From positions 1 to 48,191 of the IMG/VR virus record IMGVR_UViG_3300017964_001331: a stretch of DNA of 48,191 nt. One strand, given 5' to 3'. Below, piece after piece: positions 13,033-43,566 of the stretch. This DNA is from a virus. The notes below the pieces were generated by a model. It worked only from the letters and a program-made list of their open reading frames with translations. It ran no database searches and had not been told where the DNA came from. A program made the position numbers and the translations under genes. Every line of letters begins with the position of its first letter. Within the stretch, counting starts at the first letter, position 1.

Positions 13033-13048
13033 TCGTGTAACCCCTAAG

Positions 13049-13065
13049 CATTTATATTATTTATC
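13049..13065 (-). promoter_or_regulatory. Two adjacent late-promoter-like octamers
   Basis: On the minus strand, GATAAATA (13065-13058) is followed by TATAAATG (13056-13049). Each matches the T4 late promoter TATAAATA at 7 of 8 positions. They lie 25 and 16 nt before the ATG at 13032. Confidence 0.5.
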
Positions 13066-13069
13066 GTTT

Positions 13070-15016: not shown

Positions 15017-15017
15017 G

Positions 15018-17706: not shown

Positions 17707-17714
17707 TATTTATT
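17707..17714 (-). promoter_or_regulatory. Late-promoter-like octamer AATAAATA
   Basis: Seven of 8 match to TATAAATA, 17 nt before the ATG at 17689. It overlaps the last codons and stop of the 5153-aa gene. The nonamer AATAAATAC is identical to those at 10545-10553 and 44745-44753. Confidence 0.5.
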
Positions 17715-29700: not shown

Positions 29701-32700
29701 GTCTCTGTAATCTTTGTATGCTTTAATAAAGCTACCGTCATGTCCTTTAACAAAAGCAACGCCTAAAGGATACTCGTTAATTTCAACATTATCATAATGT
29801 CCGTAAAAAGAACCGGTTGCAGGCATATAGAAAATTTTGTTTAAACCAACAAATGTAATTGTGTTAGCAGTATCATTTGCATCTGCATCTTTAGCAGCTT
29901 TTCTAGTTGTATATATAGGATAAAACCAGCCTCTAGTTCCTTTGTTGCTGCCTGATTCAGCTTGTCCGTAAATTTTAAATGGACCAGTTTCTGAAGGTTC
30001 ATCTACTATAACTGTATCATCAATGTATAGTTCTGGTTCATATTTAGGATAAAGTCCTAACTTTGTAGGTGTTGGAGGAACAAATGATCCGTCAGTATTA
30101 TCATACTCATAAATTTCTATCTTGTCATCTTCGACTTGTCCTGCATCAATACTTACATAACCTGTAGAGTCAAAATTATAATCTCTGCCATGTATTAATT
30201 GTTCTCCGTTCAAGTATACTAAAACACTTTTTACAGACAAACTAGATAGATTAAAAGGAGAACTTAAAGGATATTCTTTTGTTCTAGGATCTAAAACTGT
30301 ATATTCTATAATATTAGTGTTGCTATATGATAGCATATCACTAAAGTAAAACGGCTGAGTTTTTACTTTATCTTTATTAATTTCTTCTAATAATTTATCA
30401 ACATGTACTTTAGTAGTTCCGTCATACCCTAAACTTAGAGCACTTTCTAAAAATACTTTTTTAAATCTTGAATATTCATTTTTAGAATATTTTAAGGCTT
30501 TTATAATATTAGTTTCTTTATTTGTTATATGATATAAAGATAAATTTATCGGTCCGCTGTGTTTTACAAAACGCTTACCAAATCTATCTAAGTTTCCTAA
30601 ATCACGCAAATTACTTGAGCCTAAAAACACACCTTTAAAGTTTGGTAATTCTTCAAGCATAGTGTCAACATGATCAACTACTTCACCTAAGGTAAACTCA
30701 CTTACATCCTCGTTTAGTGGATTGCGTTCTAGGTTATGTGGGAACTCATAATGTCCATTACTATTTTTAGATGTTTTAGATCTTGTTTTTATTTTAACAA
30801 TATCTCCAGAATTTAAATTATCATAAAATCTAACATATGCAATTTTGTTTATTCTGTCAAGTTCATAATCTGTTAATTTAATTTGTATTTTATTATTAAC
30901 ATAAACTACAACATATAAATCATTTAAATCTCCAGAATTATTATAAACATCTATTGCAAAATTATTATTTTTTATGTCTGTTACATCGTATTGTCTAACA
31001 ACATATTGTTTACTTTCTGTAGGAATGTTACTGAAAGCATTTACATAAGTAAAGTCCGAAAGTGTTTTGTATTTTTTTAGGTAGCCAGAACTAATATCTT
31101 GAGATATAATTTCTGTTCCTTCTTGATATTCAAATGTATCGTTTAATAAATCAAAGTTAAAAAGTATATCACTCGAATTTTCAATAGTTCTGTAATTTAA
31201 AGGAAATCCTAGCTCTAAATCATTAGTACCTTCACCTAACTTATATGAAAATAATTTAGTTCCTTTAAAGGTAGTAGATTCATAATAAGTTTCGTCAGCA
31301 AAACTATTATCGTTTACATCACAAACTTCAAATAACGGAGACTGGTTTCTTTGAGTTTTTTCTTGTGCTTCTAGCCAGCTTCCGCCGTGATAGTGATAAC
31401 TTTTTCCTGCATTTTTTACACCACTAGTTACTAGTATAGTTTCTAAATCTTGCGGTTCAGTATCATCAGTTTCAATTAATGCAATTTGTTTATTATTACC
31501 AATTTCAATAAATTTAACTTGATAAATTTTTCCAGATACTAAAATATCAGTATCTGCTACAAAAAGAATGCGCATGCCTTCTGCTAAATCAATACCGTCG
31601 ATATTATACCCTAATGCTCCTTCAATTGTACTAAAAACATCTTTTGTAAAAGTATCAATTAAATCAACATCTTTTTTAGCAAAACTACCAAAGTTGTTTA
31701 ATTTTAGTCCTGCTTCAAATTCAATAATCGGACGTTTAGCTCTTTTGCTTTCGTCAATATTTTCAGGTAAATTATTAAATTTAAAACTATCTTTTAAAAC
31801 ATCTTTATGGAACCATTTATTATAACGACTCCATGCGTTTCTATCTTTACTTGCTCTATTAATAATAATATAATCTGGTTCAGTTGCTGAAGCAGTAGCA
31901 TCAGAAAAAGGTAATGTATCAAATTCTTCACTATCAAATGGAACATAACGTGCTTCTGTATATGCAGCAGGAATAATTAAATCTTGATCTTTGATTAATT
32001 TAATATTTTCTCCTACACCTTCAACATACCAATTATTTTGAGCATAATAAGCAGGTTCAACATCGCCTTGGAACTTAATCTTCATACCGTTGGACAATTC
32101 AACTCCGTTTGCACTTAGATATGTTTTCTTTCCTAAGATTTCGTCAGTAACATTTAAGAAAGCATTTTCTTCAATGTCATAAATTTTAATTAATCCGCTA
32201 GTGTCAATTGAATTCTTGCTAACATAGTATAATCTATTAGGTGCGTTAAATGGAATTGTAAATTCAATTGTACCTTTTTCAACATATGCAACTGCAACTT
32301 CTTCACCTTCTTCACCTAATTTGCGTATTCCGTCAGGATAAAGTGTTGAAACGTTTTCATCATCTTCAAAAGTAACACTGCCGCCGGAAGGAAGAACAAT
32401 AAAGTCTCCTTGATCATATTCATTGCCATATAGATCTGCTCCAAATAGTCCGTCAGCTCTTATTCCTTCTGTTCCTGCTGTTAATATTGCACTACCTGGA
32501 GTAAAACTTCTAGTAATTGCAAATGCTATTGGATGTCCTGGAGTGTCAATATCAAAACGATAAGTTTGTCCTCTATAAAGTTTTAACGATGGATTTCTAG
32601 TCAATCCGTCATTAAAGACATATGCTTTATTATCTCCTTGATCTTCAATAGTTACAGAATACGTACTAACAACTTCTCTACTTTGTCCTCTAACAGGAAT

Positions 32701-33171
32701 GCTAATAGGACCGTGCGGTAACCAATAATACTCACGGAAGTTTACAAACTTATCCCAATCTATACTTGGGTTCCAACTATAAGTTTCTTGATTATTTAAT
32801 CTACTATGGTTTTCTATATTTGCACCAAAAACATTTAGTTGTCCAAGATAGTCATTATAGTCTTTATAAAAAGTAACATTATCATACAGATCTTTAACTA
32901 CTACGCTAGGTTCTAGTTGATAATCTTCTCTTGTTTTATTAACATCAGCAACATAATTGTCAGTTGACTGATGTGCTTTTGCTGTCCTTCTACCATAATA
33001 TCCATTTAATTTTTCAGCAACACCCGGTTGGATCATTTGATCCATTGTAGCTTGTAAAAACTTTTGGTTTGCCGTACTCCTAAAAAATCTAGGTAAAAAA
33101 TCTGCAGAACTAATTTTATTATTTCCGCCTGGAATTGGCAAAGCCGAATCTTGTTGAGTTTTCTTAGCCAT
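17710..33171 (-). CDS. Giant (5153-aa) baseplate/virion structural protein
   Basis: One uninterrupted frame of 15.5 kb. The N-terminal part has a NPSIDWDKFVNFREYYWLP segment (about 130-150) and a cupredoxin-like LYRGQTYRFDIDTPGHPIAF (about 195-220). Around 1275-1420 is a WEMLGITIKPSWWDEVYGPAPY block known from large marine phage virion proteins. Five or more sugar-binding-like W/Y..Y..GdiV.y...Y segments occur (about 1570, 1830, 2350, 2985, 3040). FG-GAP/beta-propeller-type blades (SIDVSPDGEYLVVGVP, SLSPDGRKIAIGAPYNDD) lie at about 2240-2325 and 3110-3260. GTGY-type repeats follow at about 3870-4200, then several 'V-x-L-N-G-x-x-L' beta domains to the end. Its start overlaps the gp6 stop (TAATG). 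In T4 this place is held by gp7 and gp8, so a wedge/rim role is inferred; homology to gp7 is not shown. Confidence 0.75.
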   Translation of the reverse strand: MAKKTQQDSALPIPGGNNKISSADFLPRFFRSTANQKFLQATMDQMIQPGVAEKLNGYYGRRTAKAHQSTDNYVADVNKTREDYQLEPSVVVKDLYDNVTFYKDYNDYLGQLNVFGANIENHSRLNNQETYSWNPSIDWDKFVNFREYYWLPHGPISIPVRGQSREVVSTYSVTIEDQGDNKAYVFNDGLTRNPSLKLYRGQTYRFDIDTPGHPIAFAITRSFTPGSAILTAGTEGIRADGLFGADLYGNEYDQGDFIVLPSGGSVTFEDDENVSTLYPDGIRKLGEEGEEVAVAYVEKGTIEFTIPFNAPNRLYYVSKNSIDTSGLIKIYDIEENAFLNVTDEILGKKTYLSANGVELSNGMKIKFQGDVEPAYYAQNNWYVEGVGENIKLIKDQDLIIPAAYTEARYVPFDSEEFDTLPFSDATASATEPDYIIINRASKDRNAWSRYNKWFHKDVLKDSFKFNNLPENIDESKRAKRPIIEFEAGLKLNNFGSFAKKDVDLIDTFTKDVFSTIEGALGYNIDGIDLAEGMRILFVADTDILVSGKIYQVKFIEIGNNKQIALIETDDTEPQDLETILVTSGVKNAGKSYHYHGGSWLEAQEKTQRNQSPLFEVCDVNDNSFADETYYESTTFKGTKLFSYKLGEGTNDLELGFPLNYRTIENSSDILFNFDLLNDTFEYQEGTEIISQDISSGYLKKYKTLSDFTYVNAFSNIPTESKQYVVRQYDVTDIKNNNFAIDVYNNSGDLNDLYVVVYVNNKIQIKLTDYELDRINKIAYVRFYDNLNSGDIVKIKTRSKTSKNSNGHYEFPHNLERNPLNEDVSEFTLGEVVDHVDTMLEELPNFKGVFLGSSNLRDLGNLDRFGKRFVKHSGPINLSLYHITNKETNIIKALKYSKNEYSRFKKVFLESALSLGYDGTTKVHVDKLLEEINKDKVKTQPFYFSDMLSYSNTNIIEYTVLDPRTKEYPLSSPFNLSSLSVKSVLVYLNGEQLIHGRDYNFDSTGYVSIDAGQVEDDKIEIYEYDNTDGSFVPPTPTKLGLYPKYEPELYIDDTVIVDEPSETGPFKIYGQAESGSNKGTRGWFYPIYTTRKAAKDADANDTANTITFVGLNKIFYMPATGSFYGHYDNVEINEYPLGVAFVKGHDGSFIKAYKDYRDELLLELEKRIFNNIKADYSTDRLDIHNFIPGDHRETEFSRNEINRTLLGDFQQWLTTSLTNTSYTNNTFYDRNNAWTFNYSDTKTPNGNKNPGFWRSLFVYAFDTDRPHTCPWEMLGITIKPSWWDEVYGPAPYTGDNLVLWKDLEAGKIAEPGNVRINLDYARPGLTNHIPVGSDGKLVTPTRIGYANGFNIQQTSRNFSFGDYSPTENAWRRSSEYPFALLTSYLLNKPAKVMGLGFDISRINKNKANQWVYKETNKPIETKNLLLPNTYNSDSRVLTSGLVNYVYNLVASNILTLYSSYETNLKNISNQIGIKIGGFTSKPKFNLILDSRSPTQNLTQDGIFVPQENYQIFLNTSSPSQLAIYSGLIVEKAEVGYVLRGYNLEKPYFEYYEAREGSSSSTVTVGGINEAVVPWDSNTLYTAGEIIIHNNSYYRVTKSFETGVSFTLENLSKLPTLPIEGGRVAQFKKNFDKTSVKTLEYGTRLKTVQEVVDFILGYNERLTDIGFIFDDVSEGFGEVNNWNQSAKEFMFWTTQGWASGGIITLSPAANILEFQKDFYVVDDIKDPFYGYSILKADGLFLDSEFNSLLRNENSFGVEVTNTDEGLFHASLPLIQKEHVVLLDNTTVFNDIIYRPSTGYRQERIKVSGYRSDNWNGGLNIPGFLYDDGTFTDWTQWKDYTIGDIVKYKQYYYVASKNISGSQNFNSNDWYLLSEKPESQLLTNFDYRTTQFTDFYDLDSDSFDIEQQRMAQHLIGYQKRQYLANIINDDVSQFKFYRGAIAEKGTMNVFTKLFDALGKTTDNLEFYEEWALQVGRYGSVDDIKQVEYIIQEEKVQESPQAFELLNTLPATNYDKIYRILPNEVYDKPEDYDHAPLPVKNIESEYIKTGGYVKESDVATTIGNISNLILVNVNGLNLGDNIWITNTESNDWTVMQVVRSGAYASEFTVSLIEDADPGYGIGELTLDRWSASIVTEGDYIGLQHAEEYLLNGFYKVISAELNKIKIEVPFAGNELTDDVLDFEEENFSVVKLRTVRTDSLNGVNSLTNQEFYQDQKIWIDDYNSTWAVLENNSVYNNEQTIVNPSEYDSTTHGFTDSLAVTKDNNNVFVASPNDVNGKVYFYRRSREASNLNLSQEIELDNDDYFALDNLDFSRSIDVSPDGEYLVVGVPNASNIKTKLAYKTDSNTNEQTFDFQSDKTYVKGDIVRYRETLWKANREILPQIGNQPFTTFDTYINIASQQDADSTSLNLLVAGDPGLPNNTVDHILVRAPKDMYLGTAVGDLVNLYWNTVSYAFNTSDIQYPFDNEIAEITVNWLNQEHTIAKKVDHVFFLETFVTLPNVGDTFTTDTGAAEIVYVGTRRDSAVIYVSNTNGVFDISGTAYNAEGDLIGDYTEESTYSITDAVAGYWYIETGFTYSNNGRYYDSGKGLVYADVRPADSQRPVNYYYNIQNTIAAVGPYITNKNQASFLSSLSYTGDPAGADGTSGVSSPQLDNRWIARVGKEFSNIVQVGEEYEFRLYDLDNRNIDLSNTAFTYEFLNKKHTITDIWDGYIDFELTEFDFQGFPYEPQIGDILEDVQIPRDGQGGLALTSTTTSSAEVVFMRRNFNSIRVYVKVLSGNWNELSNIGRYEIRRKAGTNNTVNPNIRGVNDVDRVIGTVEDINNDIVLGTNLVGKLLVFANDSNLNIVTQPEVVDEEYWFFNENTESGIQRLANPPYSLNKDYTQVYNIPADKYGVAKTGLENEGAVAIFRRVAGEYRLQNIFVSEYRHAGRQFGNLVKITQNNNYYTLMIGSKGVDTTEELLDDSIGRRTYPGTIEIVRHGTKPSDNFKGEYQLTAYDIGDIVIYKDNYYRANKAILETQNVIQDSIYWTNISWRYGQDTNYRGDFDNSYTYKSGNIVVYDNKLWSANTNIDVNAPVPSNSNASWSEISTKIDYLGYLPNLTSTHFYNEEVFDPIQNIEQFSEAFDISDDGNVLIVTSKQMETDSTIHKSIVVYREVDDKYMVDQVIPSPNNTEGFADVVSLSPDGRKIAIGAPYNDDKKINQGIVYIYSQVNGKFVQTQTLTPPNNEESEGFGYSLNFGEDNLVISSLNGDQKIPTRFDTYTDRVDENSYTLDTTSKERTATTFDAEFTTFNNIILDKGVVYVYENLEDTLIYSEQFRYSLSQRMFGENVYSNNNHVYVGMPQQYSGDYKGIMLDFRKGNGVFAWEAISQNVIPVDVSKIRGAFLYNKRKNEIITYVDYVDPVQGKIPGVADQEIAFKAPYDPALYNTGELTDNNVDPDRVWTDEYVGKVWWDISTAKFANAHQGSTTFQKNNWNKLLPNATINIYEWVESDYLPSSWDTLADTPEGASQDISGTSLYGDEKFSTRIIYDDVSKTFKNKYYYWVESKRTVPVMEDRFLSIFDIAALIANPRTQGYKFLSLLTNNKFVLNNCDDVIEGDDVVLNIKYSTGPKENQNLHSQYKLLSENDKSSKPDADIERKWFDSLIGFDENSRLVPDPDITVKNRYGVQSRPRQSMFVNRIEALKQTIERVNFVLGNSLITDEYDISDLTAKDEAPTLISKKYDISVDSISELQYISTSKITQAILEPVIVNGRITRINIINSGRGYKVAPSFKINGKGFDADFDITLNNLGQITNVKITNDGYGYDNNTTITVRPFTALVTADSEVQDKWALHSWNIESQSWNRISVQGYNVELYWDYKDWYATGYNQFTNIKHNIDGSYQLPTLSDSIGDVIKINNIGSGGWLLLEKIDTQDTEDYTVNYKTIGRQNGTIEFNESLYNFSKNTIGYSNRSFDNYFYDSNPAFELRIILNTIRDKLFVGDLEVEYNKLFASTLRYVLAEQPAADWVFKTSFVKAKHNRGDLGQKDLTFNNDNLQSYQDFVEEFKPYKTKLREFVSQYTVTEETNSVVTDFDLPPKYNSLTGKIEPSKAIIVDGSLQDVNFDLETPPRNNWKNNLGYQITKVDIGDTGSGYTYEPIIKFVGGNGTGATAKAYLGYGKITKIEITNPGTGYTSAPTVVIEGSQLDTGTPAKATAVLGNGSVRSTRVKVKFDRVSKTFTIESLAETETFVGTNSETRFFLEWPMDLDKKKVKIYVDDVLQLRSKYSYENIIDNSKTYTRHQGKIIFTTPPALGASIRVEYYKPLSMLTAQDRINLAYAPTAGMYGKDLAQLMTGIDYGGVEVTSFDFTSSAGWDSQPWYTDNWDSFVNTFEDEIFTADGSTVSVQLSAPLEDGVVYNLYKNGVRIDDPDYDAGTPTNVHAITNSITGDGVTDTIDLASRDILMLDGDVLAIRKITSDGSVKIDPDSYDTQLEGGDLQYSTATGLNAEDIIVDGDGFVTPTTSGGPEELVPGQILDTLDIKVYTRDSDGQGVIYSQSYRAVPGTLNYNLGVIPNNISAVIVKVDNVILADSEFTINWSSNIITIPSLIGGEELNIVAVAQGVQSILDYGKFTGDGEQTDFETNVEFVEGMSGYANINGVQQDVTVYNTNDSTRAFIRFDTPPNLNSVINFTLFGNSDVVNYSQMSSSMFVGDGVSIEYDIQSTPLYAAPTQHNILVKVGNRILNAGYNTKFEIPENNQREYALEIFQQPQGSLDVSDVSVYLNGKLIETPVQWRFDIANSSIVLPDDIGTPGDLLDIYVITDGEYRVIGSTVILDTPPADQETVEIIQMTNHDILKLERINYDVVERTTTYAGEVEYVTYNRLTLGEIKLRKPAVDAQYVWVSLNGELLTPSVDYYITDDKQKVRLTVTPQANDVIDILHFAANVSVPKFAFRQFKDMLNRTHFKRLDSAATTLAQDLNYYDLRIEVVDGSTLSTPNKDLNLPGVIFINGERIEYFVKEDNTLRQLRRGTLGTGVKEVHSAGTNVFDQNISKTVPYRDTTLAYNTIADGNTNNFEIDYDVNSINEIEVFVGGTRQRKTTIEVFDPTLALDSPEGDVTISADFSFDADTNSITLLNTPAENSRITVVKKVGRAWTTQGTTLGNTENSIARFLRAGTSELPE

Positions 33172-36100
33172 TAGTAACTATAACCTCCGCCTGTAGAGCT
33201 TGATGTAGATGATGCACTACTTGTTATTTGATTAGATGTTGTGCTTGTTGAACTTGTAATTACATTGCCGCTTGCTTGTAAATTAGTTGCTGTAATTTCG
33301 TCTATTGTTTCTATGTCAGATACTTTTGCGCCGCTGGCAAAAATTTCATCTGCTTCAGATTTTATTTCAAATAAACTACCAAAACTTTGTGTAGTTTGTC
33401 TAGGTACAATTAATATACTAACTAATTTTGGCGATAACTGACTCATAATATAAGAACTTAGCTCTTGGAAATAAAATGTTTCACCAAAATCCCAATTTTC
33501 AATATCAAAGAAACGATTTATTGATTCAATAATATCAGATTTAAGTTCATTATCATTAATTACTAAGTTAGGATTTTTTACAATTTTAAATTTAACTTGT
33601 AAATCTGCAGGTGCTTTGTCGCCAAATAAAATTTTATATTTTACTGGATGATATATAATTTCATCACTTATACTTTTAATTTCATTAATTGAACTTCCAT
33701 AAGATCTAAAAAGCTCATCATTACTTGGCGGCTTTGGTTTTACAGAAAGTGTTCCATCAATATATTGTTTGACTTGATCGTCATATGTTTTTGATAAAAT
33801 ATATGTATCAATAATATTTGATGCACTAGGATCTATTCTGTATCCACTGTCTGCAACATGAACATAATGAAGTTTTAATCCTGCTCTACCATAGTATGCT
33901 TTGTAGTTTACATCAAGTGTAGTATTGTTTAATGTTTTATTAAGTTTCTTAAAAACACCTTCGTCTATCAAGTAAAAAATTTGTCCGTTATTGTCCCATT
34001 GGGTATACGGAGCAATACTAGATTCATTTTGCACTAAAACAACTTCACTTGTTGAATTATCAAGATATTTAAAATCTTCGACGCCATCTGTAGTAGTATA
34101 TTTCTTTTGGAATATAATTTTTTCTTCTGTAGAAATTGAAGTATCTTCTTCTCCAACTATTTGTTCAAAGATATCCGGATCATCAACTACCCCGTCATCA
34201 TCTAAATCAATAAATTGTACTTGTATTTTACGACTATCTAAGTAACCTTCAGAATCTTTATAAGCATCAGTTATGGTCCAAGTAAAATCTTTTGTAAATG
34301 GTGTTAATTGTCCAGGTTGAGTATTGATGTTTAGCACATCAATTCTATCTCTAACAACTTGTCCAGTTGACGGATCGTAAATTTTATCAGCACTATCAAA
34401 GAAAAATCTTATTTCGTCTGCACTTTCAAAAACATATCTTAACTGTCTATATGTTATTGTGTATTTTTCACCGTCTGTTTTAAAATACAACATCCAACTA
34501 GAATCTAAGTTTTCTCCAGTTGTGTCTCCTGCTTTACCAGTTGCAAAATCGCTAATAGTATTAATATCTTCTGCTAATACTATTTTCCAAATTCTGTCTG
34601 TTATATCGTATCTTAAAGCAAAATCTTTATATTCAAATGTTTGATCAATGATTTCTGTTTTAAGATCGTCTACTAATGATTTAGAATAGTTAGGAATAAC
34701 TTGTGAAATTAATGCACCGTCAGGAATAATATCATTTAATATAACCGGACCAGTTCCGTCATCTTCAACATCAACACCTGTGTTAGAAACTGCAATAACT
34801 TTTGCCCATTTATATGTAGATTGACCTTTTTTAATAGTTCCTGTTTCGTTCCATGTGCCGTTTGGCATGAAGGTTTTTGTATCCGGAGACGTAAATTTAA
34901 TTAAGGATCCAGGTTCTACAAAACGGAGTGCATTAACTGTAAAGTCACCTAAAGGATATGTTTGATTTGAAGAATCTTTAAACAAGCCTGTACAAATATT
35001 TGTGCCTTTAGTTGACTGTGTCCACGTTGCATTAAGGTCACTTACTATTGTTTTAGGATATTTTGCTAAAAAGAAATTTTTAGAATTTATATTACCAATA
35101 ATACGCTCAACTGTATTGTAAATAATACCTTCAATGTCAGTTTGAGTTGTAAATGTAAAAGATTGTTTTTCTACAAATTCTTCTTTGTATAATATTCCGT
35201 CATCTGCAAACAAACTTGTATTTGAATATTTTCCACTAGCATCTTTTAAATCAAAAAATCTGCTTATTCCGCTTGATATTCTATTTGAACTTTTTGTTTT
35301 AATAATATCTTGGCTTATAGCAAGAGGTCCAACATTGTAATCTTCGCCTGTAACTAGTCTATTTTGTGTATAATAAGTTGCTGGAGCATTTGCTTTTATT
35401 TCTTCATTAGATTCTGTTGCAGTTCCATTTGTTACTGTGTAATTTAATTTTAATCCAATTGTAAGTGTTTGCTTAGTACCATTTCTAGCTTGGTAAGGAA
35501 TATCAATACTAACTGTATTAATTGCTCCAGGAGTTATAACACTTTTTAAACCATTACTAGTTCTATAATATACTTTAAAATCTCCTGCTGGTAAATTACC
35601 AAAAACACCATCACTAAAAACTAAATTAATTCTATCACCTATTCTTGTAGTGACTGCAAAAACATCTCTTGTTTGATTAAACAAACTATTATAGATAACA
35701 TTATTTCCTTCTGTAGAAGAAACTTTTGTCCACTGTTTATTTTCTATTCCTAAACTATTAACTTCATATAACCAAACATCGGTATCATTAATATTTCTTG
35801 AATCGATTGCCACTGATTGGTTTGGTATCGGATTTGACATGTTAAACGAGCCGTTTTCAAGACGTCCTTGACGGAAGTGCATAAAAAATCCTGTATTATT
35901 AGATCCTGCGCCTTGTCCATCATCACGGAAAAGAAATGCTGGACTATTGCCAGGCAACGGTGGTTCTTCTACAATACTTCCAGAAGAAATGTCTGAACTT
36001 ACAATTTCAAATCTAGTTGTAACACCTTCTATTTGTTTTGTAAACGGATATACTGCACTACCTGTGTTTAGTGCGTTTATACGATATTTTTGAGTTTGTA

Positions 36101-36644
36101 CATCTGCAACCTGTTCTGATTTTAGTGGATTTCCAATTGAGTTTGCAAGCGGCATTGCAGAATTTAAAATTTTAACAAATTGTTCAAAATAGTTTGTATT
36201 TGCTTGGTCATTCCATTTTACAGTAATGCCAGCTAGATTTAACCCGTTACTATCTATAATACTCTCAGTTGTTGATAATGTATCAATTTTTAATAATCCG
36301 TTGGCTGCTTGATTTCTGCGTGGATTATAAGAAAGCATACGTGCAAGACGTAAAACACTTTCTCTACGTTCTGCTGTTTCAAGGAAGTTTTCACGAGCAT
36401 TTAGATCTACACGGAATGATAAGTTTTGCCCAAGGAAAGCAATCATATCAATCAGTGCAAGATATTCGCTTGACTCAATGTAATCGTTAAAATCTTCTGG
36501 ATAGTTTTGACGCAGATAATTAATCATTGTTCTGCGTAGGTTATCAAAATCATAGCTTTGGAAATCTGCGTTCCTAAAGCTCTGGTAAATTCTTTTCCAA
36601 TCTTCGGCTACAAGTAGCCTAGACTGTCTATCGGTTGCAGCCAT
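33171..36644 (-). CDS. 6: Baseplate wedge protein gp6-like
   Basis: A 1157-aa protein, longer than T4 gp6 (about 660 aa). The N-terminal 120 residues are strongly gp6-like: LVAEDWKRIYQSFRNADFQSYDF, then MINYLRQNYPEDFNDYIESSE, ALIDMIAFLGQNLSFRVDLN and AERRESVLRLARMLSYNPRRN. In T4, gp6 dimers form the backbone ring of the baseplate together with gp7 and gp53. Direct linkage to gp25 upstream supports the assignment. The middle (about 600-1000) holds extra beta-rich material not expected from T4. The C-terminal 40 residues are almost only Ser, Thr, Gly and Ala and look like a flexible tail. An AAGGAA ribosome-binding site lies 8 nt before the ATG. The stop shares a base with the ATG of the 5153-aa gene. 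Confidence 0.9.
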   Translation of the reverse strand: MAATDRQSRLLVAEDWKRIYQSFRNADFQSYDFDNLRRTMINYLRQNYPEDFNDYIESSEYLALIDMIAFLGQNLSFRVDLNARENFLETAERRESVLRLARMLSYNPRRNQAANGLLKIDTLSTTESIIDSNGLNLAGITVKWNDQANTNYFEQFVKILNSAMPLANSIGNPLKSEQVADVQTQKYRINALNTGSAVYPFTKQIEGVTTRFEIVSSDISSGSIVEEPPLPGNSPAFLFRDDGQGAGSNNTGFFMHFRQGRLENGSFNMSNPIPNQSVAIDSRNINDTDVWLYEVNSLGIENKQWTKVSSTEGNNVIYNSLFNQTRDVFAVTTRIGDRINLVFSDGVFGNLPAGDFKVYYRTSNGLKSVITPGAINTVSIDIPYQARNGTKQTLTIGLKLNYTVTNGTATESNEEIKANAPATYYTQNRLVTGEDYNVGPLAISQDIIKTKSSNRISSGISRFFDLKDASGKYSNTSLFADDGILYKEEFVEKQSFTFTTQTDIEGIIYNTVERIIGNINSKNFFLAKYPKTIVSDLNATWTQSTKGTNICTGLFKDSSNQTYPLGDFTVNALRFVEPGSLIKFTSPDTKTFMPNGTWNETGTIKKGQSTYKWAKVIAVSNTGVDVEDDGTGPVILNDIIPDGALISQVIPNYSKSLVDDLKTEIIDQTFEYKDFALRYDITDRIWKIVLAEDINTISDFATGKAGDTTGENLDSSWMLYFKTDGEKYTITYRQLRYVFESADEIRFFFDSADKIYDPSTGQVVRDRIDVLNINTQPGQLTPFTKDFTWTITDAYKDSEGYLDSRKIQVQFIDLDDDGVVDDPDIFEQIVGEEDTSISTEEKIIFQKKYTTTDGVEDFKYLDNSTSEVVLVQNESSIAPYTQWDNNGQIFYLIDEGVFKKLNKTLNNTTLDVNYKAYYGRAGLKLHYVHVADSGYRIDPSASNIIDTYILSKTYDDQVKQYIDGTLSVKPKPPSNDELFRSYGSSINEIKSISDEIIYHPVKYKILFGDKAPADLQVKFKIVKNPNLVINDNELKSDIIESINRFFDIENWDFGETFYFQELSSYIMSQLSPKLVSILIVPRQTTQSFGSLFEIKSEADEIFASGAKVSDIETIDEITATNLQASGNVITSSTSTTSNQITSSASSTSSSTGGGYSY

Positions 36645-36704: not shown

Positions 36705-37142
36705 TTACGAAAGTAAACCGTTTTCTTTGTCAAATTTAAATCGTAATTGGTCTACAATTTGGTATGGTAAAAATGTTATTGTACACTCTACTTGTAATCC
36801 TTGCTCATACGTGTCAACGATAATTTCTTCTGCACGTACTCTTGGATCATAGTTGATAATTGTAGTTACATCTTCAATTACAAGTTCTTGTACTTCGTTT
36901 GTAAATGGCTCATATAATATATCCCATATTATTGTGCCAAATGTAGGATCACTAAGTTTTTCAGTTTGTCTAATATGAAAGTGGTTGATTATATCTTGTT
37001 TTATTAGATCGAAATCATATAAACTAAAACTTTTAGCGTCTGAGATCGTAGAAAAACCTCTATAAGCTCTGCCTGAAGAAGCATCACGCATTGTTTGTTT
37101 AACAGTTACACGATTATATAAATTTTTTTCTAATTCGCTCAT
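36705..37142 (-). CDS. 25: Baseplate wedge protein gp25-like
   Basis: A 145-aa protein, close to T4 gp25 (132 aa). It has the family segments YRGFSTISDAKSFSLYDFDLIKQDI (in parts about 27-51), NHFHIRQTEKLSDPTFGTII (about 53-72), WDILYEPF, and DPRVRAEE (Asp99-Pro100-Arg101), the conserved turn of the GpW/Gp25 family. gp25 sits at the inner baseplate and contacts the first sheath ring; homologues are found in contractile systems including type VI secretion. It lies 12 nt after the gp5-like gene and 60 nt before gp6, the usual company in marine T4-like phages. Confidence 0.92.
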   Translation of the reverse strand: MSELEKNLYNRVTVKQTMRDASSGRAYRGFSTISDAKSFSLYDFDLIKQDIINHFHIRQTEKLSDPTFGTIIWDILYEPFTNEVQELVIEDVTTIINYDPRVRAEEIIVDTYEQGLQVECTITFLPYQIVDQLRFKFDKENGLLS

Positions 37143-37154
37143 ACTATATTTACC

Positions 37155-39629
37155 CTATTGTACTGTACGTGGAACTTCTTCAACTGTTGAAACACTGTCT
37201 TTACCACTAATTGTTGGTGGTGTAGTTGTTTTTGACAATTCTTGTTCTAAACTTTTTAGAGCGTCAGCTTTTTCATTTTTAAATCTATTTACAACACCAG
37301 CTCTAACATTTGGTTTACTTTTTCCAAAATATCGTTGTCCATTGTTTGCACCACGTTCATCATATACTGCACGAATTAATGCATCGTCGCTTGGATTAGA
37401 ACTACCAGTACGCTCTACTGCTTTCTTAAATATTTTAGATGCTCCTCCGTTGCCGTGTTGAATAGCTGTGGACCATAAAACATCTTGTACAGTTTTAGAT
37501 CTAGTAGTTACATCAATACCTGTATTACGTTTAACTTTAGCTGCTGCTGGAGTAAAATAAAGTTGTACACCAAATCCGTGTTGTGCTTTATTTCCTGCTG
37601 CGGTACCCATTACACTTTTCCAAGTTTGCTTAAATGTATCAGTTCCTTGTTTAGCGGCTGCTGCGCCGCCTGCTGCTTGTAATTTACTGTGTATATCAGG
37701 ATGTGCAGATTTAGCATAGTTCATAAAGTCGTCCATTGCACCTGTTTTTGCTGCAATTTGGTACGTACCGTAACTCCAACCGCCTGTAGTATCATAACCA
37801 ATAGCACCTGGATTTCCTCTAGACTCGTACTTTGAACTTAGCGATCCAAGTTCATCACTAAATTTAAAATTACTATTTTTTGGAGTAACATTTGGATCTG
37901 GTACTGCGCCTGTTCCTGTTGATGTTCCTCCTCCAGAGTTTATAACACCAGAATTTATTCCGCCGCCTGATCCTCCTACAAATGCGCTAGATTTCCTTCC
38001 TCCTAGATTTTTAAAGAAAGTATCAGGTGTTAACACTCTGTCTGCACTAGTTAATGCTCCTGGAGATTCTCTATCAGTTTCACCTTTTTTAAATGCTAAA
38101 GGATCTAAGTTTTCATGATGTAACCAAGGTTCGTGCTGTGGTGCTCTTCCAAGTATAGTTTCAAACGGTTGAACTACGTTTCCTGGTTTTGTTTGAGGTA
38201 ATGTAATTGTACTCAAAGGTGTAACTTCAGTTGCAGGATTTGCTAATGCTGCACCAGGTCCATTCATATGTATGTATTTTGCAGTTTCTCTATGCTCTGC
38301 TCCACTGTTAATGTGTGTATATTGTTTAGCAGTTAAAAAGTTATTTTGTCCTGTATTAACATGTAGAGATTTTGCTGTTTCAATATATTGTGATTCGTTA
38401 ACTTTTGTATGTTGATTTTTTGCTACTGTAATTTTGCTATCTTTGCCAACATTTAAATTATAATTAAAAGCAGATTCAAATTGAATTCTACCAGATTCTA
38501 AACCTTCTTCGTCTGTTGCACCACCACTACTATAACGTGCTGATGCTTTCATATTAATATTACGCCCGGCTTCTACATTAAAGTCTCTATCAGCAGTAAA
38601 ATTAATGTCAGCTTCAGATCTAACACTTATACTATCGTATCCATAAATGTCAATTTTTCCATCAGACGATAGTTCTACCCAAGCAGTACCTCTTGAGTTG
38701 CTAATATAAATTAAATCTTCACTATTGTGTAAAAGTATCTGATGCCCGGTTCTAGTTCTAAGCCTCATTAATTCATTTTGAGGAATAGTGTTATCGCCTG
38801 TTTCACCTTCTTTTATATTTTTATAAATTGGTGGACCGTCTTCTGCATGGGTTGATCTAACAAATCTATCATCACCGTCGTCCATTACAAAACTAGAACC
38901 ACCTAAACGGTTACTTGGAACATTTATTTTTTGACCTGCTGTACCGATCGGTGCTTGCGGTGCACCAGATCTGTAATCTTTTGGACCAGGTGTACTAATA
39001 CCAAATACCATACTTGGTATTTCTCTTCTAGCACTCGAAGTTGTTGTTCCTCTAGCTTCGTCTCTTAAAAGTCCTTGGACTTCTAAAACTTCTGTAAAAT
39101 CTTTATTGTAAGGTTTGTTAAACAACGTAGGATCAACTAACGAACCATCTTCAACAGTTTTGTTATATTCTCCTACAGGAAGTTTATAACCTTTTAAGTT
39201 TTCCGGAGTATGGTCTGTTGTTTTTTCTGTTGATGCTCTACCATCTGGTACCATAAAATTCATATAATCTGCAGGTACGCAACCTATCCAATATCCAAAG
39301 TTTGGATTTCCTTCAGCAAAAATTACAAGTACACGAGTTCCTATATCTGGAGGTACCATCCACATTCCATATGATTTTTGTGTATGTTCAAAACCGTCAT
39401 TTGCTGTAAGAGCAGTTTGCGGTGTTATTCCATAAAATGGACTTAAATATCTTACATTTAATAATTGTCCTGTACGCTCCGGAGTGCCGCCTGCGCTAGT
39501 ATATTTTAACAATTCTACCGTTAAGCCGCCCATATAACGTGTGTCTAAATTATTAACAACAATTGCTTCGTAGGGTCCCGAATCTTTAATGTTAGTAAGT
39601 GCGTCTCTAGTTCTAGTATAGTTTGCCAT
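37155..39629 (-). CDS. 5: gp5-like baseplate spike with C-terminal peptidoglycan-degrading domain
   Basis: An 824-aa protein. Residues 1 to about 130 form the gp5/VgrG OB-fold (GGLTVELLKY...LSPFYG...SYGMWMVPPDIGTRVLVIF...GYWIGCVP). Residues about 285-460 form the repetitive spike helix (LRTRTGHQILLHNSEDLIYI, ELSSDGKIDIYGYDSISVRS, DRDFNVEAGRNINMKA). A Gly/Ser linker at about 545-580 leads into a lysozyme-like domain at about 590-760, SKYESRGNPGAIG...SYGTYQIAAKTG, with Glu602 as the probable catalytic acid. In T4 gp5 the lysozyme domain sits between the OB-fold and the helix; here it follows the helix and is of a different (chitosanase/VgrG-associated-like) type. The tail (760-824) is Lys/Thr-rich. 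It should pierce and locally digest the host wall during injection. Confidence 0.85.
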   Translation of the reverse strand: MANYTRTRDALTNIKDSGPYEAIVVNNLDTRYMGGLTVELLKYTSAGGTPERTGQLLNVRYLSPFYGITPQTALTANDGFEHTQKSYGMWMVPPDIGTRVLVIFAEGNPNFGYWIGCVPADYMNFMVPDGRASTEKTTDHTPENLKGYKLPVGEYNKTVEDGSLVDPTLFNKPYNKDFTEVLEVQGLLRDEARGTTTSSARREIPSMVFGISTPGPKDYRSGAPQAPIGTAGQKINVPSNRLGGSSFVMDDGDDRFVRSTHAEDGPPIYKNIKEGETGDNTIPQNELMRLRTRTGHQILLHNSEDLIYISNSRGTAWVELSSDGKIDIYGYDSISVRSEADINFTADRDFNVEAGRNINMKASARYSSGGATDEEGLESGRIQFESAFNYNLNVGKDSKITVAKNQHTKVNESQYIETAKSLHVNTGQNNFLTAKQYTHINSGAEHRETAKYIHMNGPGAALANPATEVTPLSTITLPQTKPGNVVQPFETILGRAPQHEPWLHHENLDPLAFKKGETDRESPGALTSADRVLTPDTFFKNLGGRKSSAFVGGSGGGINSGVINSGGGTSTGTGAVPDPNVTPKNSNFKFSDELGSLSSKYESRGNPGAIGYDTTGGWSYGTYQIAAKTGAMDDFMNYAKSAHPDIHSKLQAAGGAAAAKQGTDTFKQTWKSVMGTAAGNKAQHGFGVQLYFTPAAAKVKRNTGIDVTTRSKTVQDVLWSTAIQHGNGGASKIFKKAVERTGSSNPSDDALIRAVYDERGANNGQRYFGKSKPNVRAGVVNRFKNEKADALKSLEQELSKTTTPPTISGKDSVSTVEEVPRTVQ

Positions 39630-39638
39630 TTTGACTCC

Positions 39639-40568
39639 TTACTGTGGTCCTACTCGATTTGGATCTCTTTCGCGATCTTGACGTTGTCTTAATAAACTAG
39701 GCCCTCCAGTTGTTGTACCAACAGCAATGCCGCCGTCAATTGCAGTTTTATTTGATTCTGCTACTTTTGCAGGAGGAGTAGGCTCATTGCTTCCTGCATA
39801 TGTTTGCAAACTGCCGCCTGTGTCTGGTGTAAAAACTTTTTTACCTAAATTAAAATCGTATCTATCAAACCCAGGACGTATAGGTTCGTATACATATGCG
39901 TTACCTGTTGATTTAGTTGCAACTGGGTCTGTTCTAGATACAGTTTTTGGAGATACTTTGCTATCAGTTTTTGTTTTACTAATAACATCCTTGTCTGTTT
40001 TTGTAGAAGTGTTTTCTGTGTCTGTTGTACTTTCTGTTTTAGTTGTAGTTGAGTTCGATTTACTAGTTGTAGTTGTAGTTGTAACTCCGGTTGATTTGCT
40101 AACAGTTTTTCCTGTATTTGTACCTGGCTTTTCATTGCTACTTTTTGGATCAGCTTGAAAAATTGGAACTCCTTGTAGTTCATCAATTTGAACTGCTCCT
40201 GGTGGAACAAAAGGTTTGCCGCCTGCTTCAATTCTTTGTTTGTTAGTAGCTGCTAAAGATTTAAAAGTAGTTTCACCTTCTGCTTCTGATGGACTGAATA
40301 CTACCCAAAAGAAATTACTATCTGCATAATTTGGAGCACCATCAACTACTCTCACTAACTGTCCTGTAGGTGCCGGTTTACCTATATTATCTTTATCAGC
40401 TTCAAATTCTCCAAATGTTTCGTAAGTAAGAATTCCGTTTTCGTCTCGCCACGGTTTACCGTCTTCAACAATTTCAGCAGACTGATCTGCGCCTCCTTGA
40501 GAGGCGCCAACTGAATCGTCTTCTATATCGTTGTCATCAAGTTTTGGATCTAAATCTTGAAATGGCAT
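39639..40568 (-). CDS. Thr/Ser-rich linker-containing structural protein, function unknown
   Basis: A 309-aa protein. The N-terminal 140 residues are acidic and look folded around residues 80-100 (NFFWVVFSPSE). Residues about 155-220 are a low-complexity run of Thr, Ser and Lys. The C-terminus (about 220-309) has an RPGFDRYDFNLGKKVFTPDTG segment and ends in a charged Arg/Asp stretch. It starts MPF, as do the two genes with hub/tube-like products just upstream. Its place between the 994-aa hub-like gene and the gp5 spike (gaps 13 and 9 nt) argues for a baseplate hub or spike-associated part, or a chaperone for one. No family recognised. Confidence 0.55.
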   Translation of the reverse strand: MPFQDLDPKLDDNDIEDDSVGASQGGADQSAEIVEDGKPWRDENGILTYETFGEFEADKDNIGKPAPTGQLVRVVDGAPNYADSNFFWVVFSPSEAEGETTFKSLAATNKQRIEAGGKPFVPPGAVQIDELQGVPIFQADPKSSNEKPGTNTGKTVSKSTGVTTTTTTSKSNSTTTKTESTTDTENTSTKTDKDVISKTKTDSKVSPKTVSRTDPVATKSTGNAYVYEPIRPGFDRYDFNLGKKVFTPDTGGSLQTYAGSNEPTPPAKVAESNKTAIDGGIAVGTTTGGPSLLRQRQDRERDPNRVGPQ

Positions 40569-40581
40569 ATTTTAAAATCCT

Positions 40582-43566
40582 TTATCCAAATAAACTGTTT
40601 ATTTTTGAACTTGCAGTTTTAGTAATGCTATCTATTTGCGCGGAAGCATCTGCTACTGCTGTATTTAATTGTGTTTTTGCTCCAGCAAGATCACTTTCGA
40701 ATTGTTTAACTGCACTTGCTGCTTGAGCATTAATTTTTGTAAGATCAGGCAATTTTGCTAGTCCTATATCAACTCCAGGTATAGAAAGTTTTATATCAGC
40801 TACTGCTGTATCAATAATATCTGGAATAATATTATCTACAGCAGGTAACAAATTTGTAATATCATCTTTAACTGTTTTTTCTAATGAGTTTGCATAATCT
40901 TTCCATTTAGAAGACATAGTATTCTTTGCTTGAGCTGCTGTTTGATTTGACGATCCGCTACCAACTGTTCCTTTTGAACTTTCTTGTTGTTTGTTAATTT
41001 TTGAATCTTCGTCTACCTTAATAAATGCATTTGAGTTTGTAGTTGGCGGATCATCTTGCCCTCTACGCCTGGTCATTTTTAATCTTTGAACAAACTGACC
41101 GTTTGAAAAAGAATTAGTAACTGCCCAGACACTATACAATCCACTAAAGCCTCTAACAATTGACGGCATCTCCATTGTTGCTCCTTTAACTTGATAATCA
41201 AAAGGAGTTAAAAAGTTTACAACAATTAAAACTTGCGATTGTTGATATGTCATTGTTCCGTCAGCAGTAATTGTAGGCGTTGCTCCTCTTTTTGCAGCGT
41301 AGTTTCCTGTTTCTTGTGGTAAGAAATAAGGATCGCCAATTATTTCCATTTCTGCTGTAATCATATCAATGGGTAAATTAGTAATTCTATCATGAAACTG
41401 CTCAGCAATTCTTACTCTAATGTCTGAACTTCTAGATCCCGAAGAAACAAGATTATCTGTTTTAAAATCTAGTGTTCCACCAGGTTCGCTCTTGTTAGCT
41501 AAATCATTAGTATCATCTGCTTTAGCACCTTGTGCTTGATTTTCAATTGCTGTTGCAGTTTTTTGCCCATCTAGTCCTGCTGCTTGACCACCGCTGTTCA
41601 TACCAAAATTTGAAAGAGCTGTTGTTAAAAACGCTTGATTAAAATTAATATTAAAATCTAATACATCTTCATTTTTTCCAGTATAAATGTAATTGTATTC
41701 TTTTACGGCAGCGGCTTTTAATCCTTTCGTATTTCCTGCTTTTTGATTTGTACCTAGTGTTACTGCTTCATCTACTTCATACGGTACAACACTATACACA
41801 TAAACTTTTGGAGGTCGTCCAGTTTGTGCTTCTGTTCCAGGATTTGGTTCTATAAAAACTTGAGTATCAATTCTAAACCATTTGTTAAGTCCGTTTTTTG
41901 GACCTTCAGTAGATTTTTCAGCAGCATATTGACTTTCTAAAATAACTTTTTCAATTATTCTAGTAATTTTTTCTTTTTGTGAAAATTGATAATCTCTAGC
42001 CTTTTCTGTTTGTTGAGTTTGTTTTGCTGTTGCATCAACTTTTCCTGTTCTTGGATCTATAACAGAAGAAGGTTCTGCTTCTGATGCATTACCGCCCGAA
42101 TTCGTATCTACGTTAATTGCACTTAGTCCAATAGGATTCATTAAATTTTCATTTTCTGCAAAAGATTTTAGTACAGCATAAGTTGCAAACGTAGGCTTAA
42201 CTACAACTTCTTTTACAGTTGTACCAAAGTCATAAACTTCTCCTGTTTTTCTAGCACCTTTTTGAATAATTATTTCTTTGTCTGCTTCTGTTGTAAGTGC
42301 TTCATCAGTAACTACACCCGATTCAAGTGCTTCAACTAACGCTGTTCTTGATTTAGGAAAAGCAATTACATATCTATCGTAAGGTGCCAGCGATCCACTT
42401 TCTTCTAGTTTTTCTATTTGCGAATTTACTCCTGCTGTAACCGAAGTTGCAGCAGTTTCAAGAACTTCATGAACTATAGTTCCTGTTGCTTTTATAGGTG
42501 TTTTTATTTTATTCACGTTATCCGCTAATCCTGATTCGCTCATAGGTATTGCTTTAACCTGATACTCGCTTCCGCCAGCGTTAACTTCAAATTCCATATT
42601 AATAAATTTAATTGGAATAAAAATTGGACGTTTAATAAAGTTTGCATTATATTGACCGTCTTCGTTCCATCCTTTAAAATCTATTCTTAAACAAAATGGT
42701 GCTTCAACATAATTTTTATATCCAGCAGTAGATGCTGCGCCAATTACTGCCTGTACAAAGTTTCCCATGCTGTAAGGTTCAATCACTCTAAAACTAAGTG
42801 TAGTTCCTAGTGTAACTCCTGTATTTTTATTAGGAGCAATTACTGCATCTAAGTCAAGATCTTCAATATAATATTCTGCATCGCCGCCGCCAAAGCCGGT
42901 GCTTGAAGCTCCCATTTCATCAAGTGTTCTATACCTTTTAGCATATTCTCCGCCGCCACTGCGAATTATATAATTTTTAAAACCGCCTGCGGCTCTATAA
43001 ACTGCTGGATTGTTATATTCTTCAGGACTTAATACTCCAAGAGTAATAATATAGTTGTAACTGTTATGGTTTCTTAAAGGATTAGGGATTTTACTCGATG
43101 ATTTTCCAGCATGTTTTACAGTTCCAAAACTTGGGTATAAAACTGCGCCTGGTTGAAGCCAATCATCAAATGCACTATCTGCTGTTCTGTCTCTGTAGAG
43201 CTGTGTTACTTGAGAAAATTCTTCATCTGCTAGACCAAATAATTCAGCCGCTCCTTTTTCAATTAAACGTAAAGGTTGATTAATTAAGCCTTGGATTTCT
43301 TCTGAGTTAGCTATTAATGCTCCAAGAGGTCCTAAACCTCTTATTTTGTTCGTAATCGAATATCTTAAAGAACCAGTAATTCCTGCTGTAATATTACCTA
43401 GTGCTCCTTGAGCTGCACTTCCTAACAATTGCGAATTAAATTTTCCTGAAGATAGTTGTTTAGAAGCATCGTTTATAAATGAATTTGTTTCAGCTGAAAC
43501 TTGTTTAAAAGTAGCCGTTGCCTGTGATGCTACAGATGACACTGCTTTTTTAAAGTTAAATGGCAT
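40582..43566 (-). CDS. Large baseplate hub-like structural protein
   Basis: A 994-aa protein. The N-terminal about 110 residues are an Ala/Gly/Ser-rich helical leader containing GLGPLGALI, similar to the leader of the 274-aa gene upstream. The middle has conserved-type segments: NSYNYIITLGVLSPEEYNNP (about 170-190), IEPYSMGNFVQAVIGAA...GYKNYVEAPFCLRIDFKG (about 260-305), KEYNYIYTGKNEDVLDFNIN (about 630-650) and EMEIIGDPYFLPQ (about 735-748). The last two resemble elements of hub/tail-tube-adaptor proteins in marine T4-like phages. Residues 890-994 are helical, probably coiled coil. The assignment to the hub is from motifs and position between gp53 and gp5; it cannot be equated with a single T4 gene. 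Confidence 0.6.
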   Translation of the reverse strand: MPFNFKKAVSSVASQATATFKQVSAETNSFINDASKQLSSGKFNSQLLGSAAQGALGNITAGITGSLRYSITNKIRGLGPLGALIANSEEIQGLINQPLRLIEKGAAELFGLADEEFSQVTQLYRDRTADSAFDDWLQPGAVLYPSFGTVKHAGKSSSKIPNPLRNHNSYNYIITLGVLSPEEYNNPAVYRAAGGFKNYIIRSGGGEYAKRYRTLDEMGASSTGFGGGDAEYYIEDLDLDAVIAPNKNTGVTLGTTLSFRVIEPYSMGNFVQAVIGAASTAGYKNYVEAPFCLRIDFKGWNEDGQYNANFIKRPIFIPIKFINMEFEVNAGGSEYQVKAIPMSESGLADNVNKIKTPIKATGTIVHEVLETAATSVTAGVNSQIEKLEESGSLAPYDRYVIAFPKSRTALVEALESGVVTDEALTTEADKEIIIQKGARKTGEVYDFGTTVKEVVVKPTFATYAVLKSFAENENLMNPIGLSAINVDTNSGGNASEAEPSSVIDPRTGKVDATAKQTQQTEKARDYQFSQKEKITRIIEKVILESQYAAEKSTEGPKNGLNKWFRIDTQVFIEPNPGTEAQTGRPPKVYVYSVVPYEVDEAVTLGTNQKAGNTKGLKAAAVKEYNYIYTGKNEDVLDFNINFNQAFLTTALSNFGMNSGGQAAGLDGQKTATAIENQAQGAKADDTNDLANKSEPGGTLDFKTDNLVSSGSRSSDIRVRIAEQFHDRITNLPIDMITAEMEIIGDPYFLPQETGNYAAKRGATPTITADGTMTYQQSQVLIVVNFLTPFDYQVKGATMEMPSIVRGFSGLYSVWAVTNSFSNGQFVQRLKMTRRRGQDDPPTTNSNAFIKVDEDSKINKQQESSKGTVGSGSSNQTAAQAKNTMSSKWKDYANSLEKTVKDDITNLLPAVDNIIPDIIDTAVADIKLSIPGVDIGLAKLPDLTKINAQAASAVKQFESDLAGAKTQLNTAVADASAQIDSITKTASSKINSLFG

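Follow-up and report, generated by a model that had tools for sequence, protein, structure and literature searches.

The window analysed here, a virus record of 48,191 bases (IMG/VR record IMGVR_UViG_3300017964_001331, positions 1 to 48,191), encodes on its minus strand a central spike protein of the gp5 type, in which an OB-fold and a β-helix are followed, behind a conserved tip motif and a Gly/Ser-rich linker, by a C-terminal domain with the predicted fold of a muramidase. Comparison with related spikes reveals a conserved body to which the part behind the tip motif is attached as an exchangeable module.

Architecture of the spike and its tip domain

The spike gene and its parts occupy the following positions of the window:

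37155..39629, minus strand: central spike protein, gp5-type, 824 amino acids, ATG start (phrog_13211 “baseplate hub subunit and tail lysozyme”, E 4.8e-46)
39255..39572, minus strand: OB-fold region, residues ~20-125 (Phage_base_V at 85-118; aligns with the PA5oct, Atu_ph07, RaK2 and GAP32 spikes)
38220..38774, minus strand: spike β-helix, residues ~286-470 (weak Pfam matches, profile matches, model and Foldseek)
37995..38147, minus strand: conserved tip segment, residues 495-545, with the motif [TQ]xEP[WYFC]xxH (motif conservation among relatives)
37854..37994, minus strand: Gly/Ser-rich linker, residues 546-592, where relatives diverge (drop in identity; low model confidence)
37269..37850, minus strand: tip domain of muramidase fold (PF21277, VgrG3-like; GH46-like fold), residues 594-787 (Pfam, sequence and structure matches)
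37824..37826, minus strand: codon of E602, the predicted catalytic acid (invariant in 24/24 sequences; aligns to the Glu of KYES in VgrG3)
37791..37793, minus strand: codon of D613, the predicted second catalytic residue (invariant in 24/24 sequences)

The tip domain matches PF21277 with E 1.6e-33 and 116.6 bits (cut-off 27) over profile positions 1-183 of 183, and the match is therefore not due to chance. By sequence, the domain also retrieves the VgrG3 structures 4noo and 4nso (E 3.2e-7 and 5.4e-7). Its model, with a predicted local distance difference test (pLDDT) value of 91.1 and a predicted template modelling score of 0.86, resembles the C-terminal domain of Vibrio cholerae VgrG3 most closely (VIA-align; 4nso, Z 19.4, root-mean-square deviation (rmsd) 2.8, 189 residues; 4noo, Z 19.1), and does so as well within the full spike model (Z 19.1 and 18.6 for 4nso and 4noo). 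The GH46 chitosanases come next (7c6d, Z 15.8, rmsd 3.3 over 194 residues; 4olt and 1chk also match), while pesticin and T4-type lysozymes lie further off. Sequence search, Foldseek and VIA-align are concordant on these relatives.

All 24 close relatives compared, which are 61-68% identical to the window protein, retain the candidate catalytic residues E602 and D613, and parts of the motifs SYG.YQ and QHG are likewise invariant in these sequences. Provided that the starts align gap-free, E602 corresponds to residue 827 of 4nso and to Glu19 of the GH46 chitosanases 7c6d and 6lwu, the titles of which name E19A mutants with substrate; Glu827 we take to be the catalytic residue of VgrG3. D613 lies three residues ahead of a GG pair in 25 of 26 GH46-type representatives, the remaining one being unreadable. 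On the strength of the modelled fold, the tip domain is predicted to be a muramidase that would act on the glycan backbone of peptidoglycan.

An earlier note on this DNA had singled out the stretch SKYESRGNPG...SYGTYQIA behind a Gly/Ser linker, and both are present, with the Glu at residue 602 and the linker at residues 546-592. The note proposed comparing the C-terminal domain with lysozymes, GH46 and VgrG-associated domains, and a muramidase/chitosanase fold emerged, not a non-enzymatic one. The proposed limits of the domain, residues 585-765, were about right, but the domain extends to approximately residue 790. The likeness to effector-tipped “evolved VgrG” proteins turned out to be close, the best solved relative being the VgrG3 domain.

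The spike body is gp5/VgrG-like, as had been suggested. In addition to the phrog_13211 match, Phage_base_V is found just below its cut-off, and it exceeds the cut-off in five of ten relatives and other proteins scanned (PA5oct 40.3 bits, Atu_ph07 38.5, RaK2 33.1, Vibrio phage 2.275 30.5, Munch 25.5). In Pfam, DUF2345 and Gp5_trimer_C match the helix weakly. A profile of 36 relatives matches the spikes of contractile injection systems (CIS) and VgrG as well as solved β-helix fragments of T4 gp5, with E values of 3.6e-5 to 0.1 that are weak singly, and Foldseek matches of the full-length model are VgrG, CIS and T4 gp5 spikes.

The stretch between OB-fold and helix (residues 126-285) holds no lysozyme or other enzyme family in Pfam, in agreement with the earlier note, and aligns to the enzyme-less spikes of PA5oct and SCTP-2. 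A lysozyme concealed there was accordingly rejected. Of 116 non-redundant relatives, 101 carry the tip motif [TQ]xEP[WYFC]xxH, 98 of these 101 with the final H, and bare spikes that end right behind the motif keep it as well; E500, P501 and H505 are invariant in 45/45 aligned rows. The motif may serve as a trimer lock or bind a metal or a partner. A double-His metal tip of the form HEPWxxH was considered and discarded, since the first His varies (TAEP, TREP and TKEP are found) and only the broader motif holds. The adjoining linker is modelled with pLDDT < 50 at residues 555-577.

The central spike of T4, gp5, likewise comprises an OB-fold (residues 1-129) and a triple β-helix (389-575), but bears its lysozyme (174-339) between the two, where the window spike has none, and a separate PAAR protein, gp5.4, sits at its tip (PMC4576200). 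PAAR (PF05488) was found in none of six related records at E <= 1; these records are possibly incomplete, and the search had no T4 gp5.4 control. C-terminal lytic domains are not new to gp5: a C-terminal lysozyme was reported for RaK2 in 2013 (PMC3622015), and one with a possible M23 domain for CBB in 2017 (PMC5259590). RaK2 gp078, CBB_240 and GAP32_234 share with the window spike the OB-fold, the β-helix, a C-terminal lytic domain and the same gp55/gp53/gp25/gp6 gene order of a T4-like phage. Unlike the RaK2-like gp5, which combines an M23-like peptidase with a GH24 lysozyme, the window spike has a single GH46-fold domain of the muramidase type. That the lytic domain had been “moved” to the C-terminus need not be assumed, since it is not a relocated T4 domain and lytic domains of the lineage, RaK2-like phages included, usually lie there.

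In V. cholerae VgrG3, an evolved VgrG, a PF21277 domain also lies at the spike end behind the β-helix, and the warhead of VgrG3 varies, being lysozyme-like in one strain and pesticin-like in another (PMC9927483). PF21277 occurs, moreover, in large tail proteins of other big phages (PBS1, BpSp, PaBG, Alexandra and YerA41). In the four scanned (BpSp, PaBG, Alexandra and YerA41), no OB-fold or spike family is present, and the domain does not follow a recognisable spike tip.

Exchange of tails behind the tip motif

Related loci were taken from four IMG/VR scans with chosen queries (three contributing their best 80 each and the fourth 2) and from seven annotated big phages; since the queries were chosen and the best 80 kept in three scans, the class frequencies are not those of nature. 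These sources gave 249 loci with a spike; L001, the locus of the window itself, and PaBG bring the total to 251. The 242 loci with a 3' end yielded 116 representatives at 85% identity, nine of the 251 being omitted for want of a usable 3' end or of a spike match. Tails were classified by Pfam for scanned seeds and by our own profiles for the remaining non-GH46 tails.

The 116 representatives comprise 26 GH46-type tails, 15 with a GH24 lysozyme, 11 with an M15 peptidase, four with M23 plus GH24, two with GH19, one trypsin-like tail (Atu_ph07), and two labelled “RPF/transglycosylase-like” on the basis of a motif and a single Pfam match below threshold (17.6 of 27 bits); the remainder hold nothing or are unclassified. 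Bare spikes are common: in a tree of the spike body, 41 of 110 rows are labelled “none”, meaning that fewer than 100 residues follow the tip.

Several tails have peculiarities of their own. The Atu_ph07 spike (L083:3956-6550) carries its trypsin-like domain at the very end (PF13365, E 6.1e-17), preceded at ~515-650 by a lambda-lysozyme-like stretch. The GH24-type tails of L179, L190 and relatives match the lysozyme profile only from position 45-46 on; judging from this alignment, their catalytic N-part may possibly be missing, which would make them pseudo-enzymes on spikes. By eye, L202 (1033 amino acids) and L249 (946 amino acids) have a long insertion within the GH24-type region. The tails of L100 and L103 are M15-peptidase-like by eye only, with no Pfam family, and for the tails of L081 and L103 the PDB yielded nothing informative.

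The boundary of the module is evident from a comparison of the window spike with ten relatives of the M15, M15-like or transglycosylase type. The body of these other-tipped spikes is 52-82% identical to that of the window outside the variable helix part (33-47%), with 54-74% in the OB region, and identity falls from 52-63% in the tip segment (residues 471-545) to 19-38% in the linker. Beyond it, two M15 tails, one RPF/transglycosylase-type and one GH19 tail align with the window domain no better than shuffled tails, and, among 100 shuffles, 5 equal the score of a GH24 tail and 7 that of a trypsin-type tail. Since a common body thus carries unrelated C-terminal domains, the suggestion of the earlier note that the lytic module was acquired separately is supported.

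In the body tree of 110 rows, from which six 5'-truncated representatives were excluded, the GH46-type rows form one clade (SH-aLRT 99), as they do in a careful tree of 34 rows (100/100), where the transglycosylase-type spikes are also one clade. M15 rows surround the GH46 clade. M15 as a proven ancestral state was dismissed, because a single M15 clade is not rejected by the approximately unbiased test (p-AU 0.126); exchange may for the same reason have run in either direction. The tail labels require at least 21 changes over the 110 rows, where the minimum possible for the 18 labels is 17; many labels are singletons.

The origin of the tip domain was approached with a tree of the spike domains, 79 bacterial and five other phage domains; VgrG3 itself is not among the rows. 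The spike tip domains form one clade (99) adjoining bacterial proteins of Sphaerotilaceae, Syntrophobacteraceae and others, and the nearest bacterial proteins scanned have no VgrG family match. A donor from a type VI secretion system (T6SS) is therefore not demonstrated. That the tip domain derives from VgrG3 of T6SS, a protein outside this tree, is not supported, though some link to T6SS may exist.

The C-terminal gp5 lysozyme and the exchange of VgrG3 warheads are already in print; new here is the exchange of tails on a common spike body. The open-access literature covered by our search, with subscription journals and preprints outside its range, yielded no report of lytic-domain exchange among phage spikes or among spike, companion and hub genes.

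Neighbouring genes and kinship of the phage

The spike gene lies among the following genes:

39639..40568, minus strand: companion gene, 309 amino acids, directly upstream of the spike (DRYDF element; without lambda-lysozyme-like N-domain)
40582..43566, minus strand: hub-position structural gene, 994 amino acids (phrog_11190)
36705..37142, minus strand: gp25-like baseplate wedge protein (PF04965 at cut-off; phrog_261/43)
33171..36644, minus strand: gp6-like baseplate wedge protein (phrog_10646 “baseplate wedge subunit”, E 2.4e-297; named gp6 from its position)

The baseplate genes follow the order late sigma factor (on the opposite strand), a 274-amino-acid protein, gp53-like, the 994-amino-acid hub-position protein, the 309-amino-acid companion, spike, gp25-like and gp6-like. 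RaK2 and GAP32 have a comparable order around gp55/gp53/gp25/gp6, but lack the companion. The same kind of spike, 66% identical to that of the window, is carried by a contig of 335 kb that also holds, at a distance of ~25 kb, a major capsid gene of the T4 type (PF07068, E 4.4e-97), and the natural reading is that the spike carrier is a jumbo T4-like phage. The contig was binned in a metagenome-assembled genome named Candidatus Neomarinimicrobiota; the bin name does not settle the host.

These surroundings bear on the proposal that the protein is a VgrG of a T6SS or of an extracellular CIS on a mobile element, with an antibacterial effector as its C-terminal domain. VgrG3 is indeed the closest solved relative of that domain, and CIS and VgrG spikes are among the Foldseek matches. 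Yet VgrG is a fusion of gp27 and gp5, and no gp27-like family occurs in the window protein, whose OB-fold starts near residue 20. Whereas VgrG3 serves a T6SS, kills rivals and is paired with an immunity protein, the window spike has gp25-, gp6- and gp53-like neighbours and a late sigma factor gene, arranged as in RaK2-like phages, and its kin lies close to a phage capsid gene. We consider this proposal highly improbable.

The companion directly upstream of the spike occurs only in the window's branch. Its DRYDF element is present, as far as the upstream open reading frames (ORFs) are readable, in 59/59 GH46-type, 15/16 M15-type and 11/11 transglycosylase-type loci and in L100 (1/1), and in none of 90 bare loci; the sixteenth M15-type locus, which has no readable companion, is cut by the contig end. 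A lambda-lysozyme-like N-domain is found on the companion in 15/16 M15-type, 0/59 GH46-type and 0/11 transglycosylase-type loci, the best GH46-type companion scoring 1.5 bits versus 276-308 for the M15 type. In L100 the N-domain matches the phrog_90 endolysin with E 1.4e-11, and in the four scanned companions of the M15 type with E 1e-20 to 9e-26; its Glu20 is invariant. Its profile finds lambda lysozyme (1am7, 3d3d) at E about 1e-3, with the 66 kDa protein 11mn slightly better, and Pfam gave a single match (E 0.035) on ten companion-gene proteins. The window companion (39639-40568) has a long Thr/Ser/Lys low-complexity middle. Of the 11 transglycosylase-type loci, 10 have an M15 domain at the C-terminal end of their hub-position gene, the eleventh being incomplete; in the one such record searched this domain exceeds the Pfam cut-off. 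In the window's lineage, glycan- and peptide-cutting domains are thus distributed differently among three adjacent genes, the spike, the companion and the hub-position gene.

This pattern may have arisen through two or three independent events only, and it might reflect nothing more than a few old events inherited by descent, with no functional pairing among the three genes. Such an account sits well with the single GH46-type and transglycosylase-type clades and with an M15 group that may be one clade. It fits less well with the companion: both glycosidase-tipped clades lack its lysozyme-like domain, which L100 and all M15-tipped lineages whose companion is readable possess. Descent alone is a substantial possibility, albeit one that we lean against.

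Downstream of gp6, a single ORF of 5153 amino acids (17710-33171, minus strand) with matches to CBM_5_12 (carbohydrate-binding) and FG-GAP repeats probably encodes a giant tail or adhesion protein. Three consecutive ORFs further on (11545-17075, minus strand) share the N-terminal families phrog_15511 and phrog_14394, differ at their C-terminal ends and are likely tail-fibre paralogues.

Proposed mode of action and its meaning

The ORF very probably encodes the gp5-equivalent spike of a contractile-tailed T4-like phage, a trimer with exchangeable, tethered tip enzymes that would open the cell wall ahead of the tube. Several observations weigh against this interpretation. Phage_base_V in the window spike scores 22.2 bits, slightly below its cut-off of 23.8, and the full spike model is a monomer with low confidence over the OB-fold; the putative trimer and the tip location are argued from the likeness to T4 gp5 and VgrG. 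The GH46 family itself, PF01374, reaches 21.3 of 27 bits, and the likeness to GH46 is hence one of fold and not of Pfam family. The Asp precedes the GG pair by two residues in 65 of 79 bacterial domains and by three, as in the spikes, in nine, five having no readable motif. Finally, no second wall enzyme or peptidase was found beside GH46-type spikes at 61 loci with seven profiles, which detected only the GH46 domain on the spike. PF13539 (M15) is absent from the three GH46-type records searched, and an M15 peptidase elsewhere in these phages was rejected on the basis of these records and the 61 loci. Because no peptidase was found at the 61 loci, the GH46 type does not, on present data, conform to a glycosidase-peptidase pairing.

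The shifted Asp could be taken to mean that the C-terminal domain does not cut at all, but binds peptidoglycan or caps the needle, penetration being mechanical or left to another enzyme. Domain-less spikes are common, and an enzyme is therefore dispensable in many relatives. A binder, however, would not need the catalytic pair, and E602, D613 and parts of the SYG.YQ and QHG motifs have stayed invariant at 61-68% identity; we regard a non-cutting domain as improbable.

If the spike is an enzyme-tipped gp5, three copies would form an OB-collar and a β-helix needle, to the far end of which three muramidase-fold domains would be tethered by flexible Gly/Ser linkers. Sheath contraction would drive the needle tip-first across the outer membrane. 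Since the C-terminal end of the helix is the leading tip, by analogy with T4 gp5 and VgrG, the tethered enzymes would enter the periplasm first and arrive there before the tube. They would cut the glycan backbone of peptidoglycan, with E602 as the acid and D613 as its likely partner, and the tube could then pass. Across this phage family, the slot behind the tip motif holds a glycosidase or a peptidase domain, the two together or neither, and in the window's lineage the complementary domain is present on, or absent from, two adjacent genes, the companion and the hub-position gene.

Inhibitors offer a candidate reason for the exchange. T4 Spackle blocks the phage's own gp5 lysozyme and thereby brings about superinfection exclusion (PMC7677548). 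By analogy, unrelated warheads would escape an inhibitor such as Spackle, and their exchange might pay for this reason. A bolder proposal, which we hold to be rather unlikely, envisages spike, companion and hub-position gene as a relocatable two-enzyme kit for wall opening, with one enzyme for glycan and one for peptide, whose parts hop among these three genes under pressure from periplasmic inhibitors of resident phages or hosts. If true, this would be a phage counterpart of the effector-immunity turnover of T6SS.

T4 gp5 provides the textbook picture of wall opening, with a lysozyme tucked beside the needle; here, the enzyme follows behind the needle tip. It can now be tested whether a tip-borne enzyme acts before the tube arrives, and whether exchange is an escape from superinfection-blocking inhibitors. 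Throughout a large, uncultured family of T4-like phages, the tip enzyme has been swapped for unrelated ones while the needle stayed constant, as in T6SS spikes. The spike tip thus behaves like an interchangeable tool head, and nature offers many glycosidase and peptidase heads that are already suited to one delivery spike.

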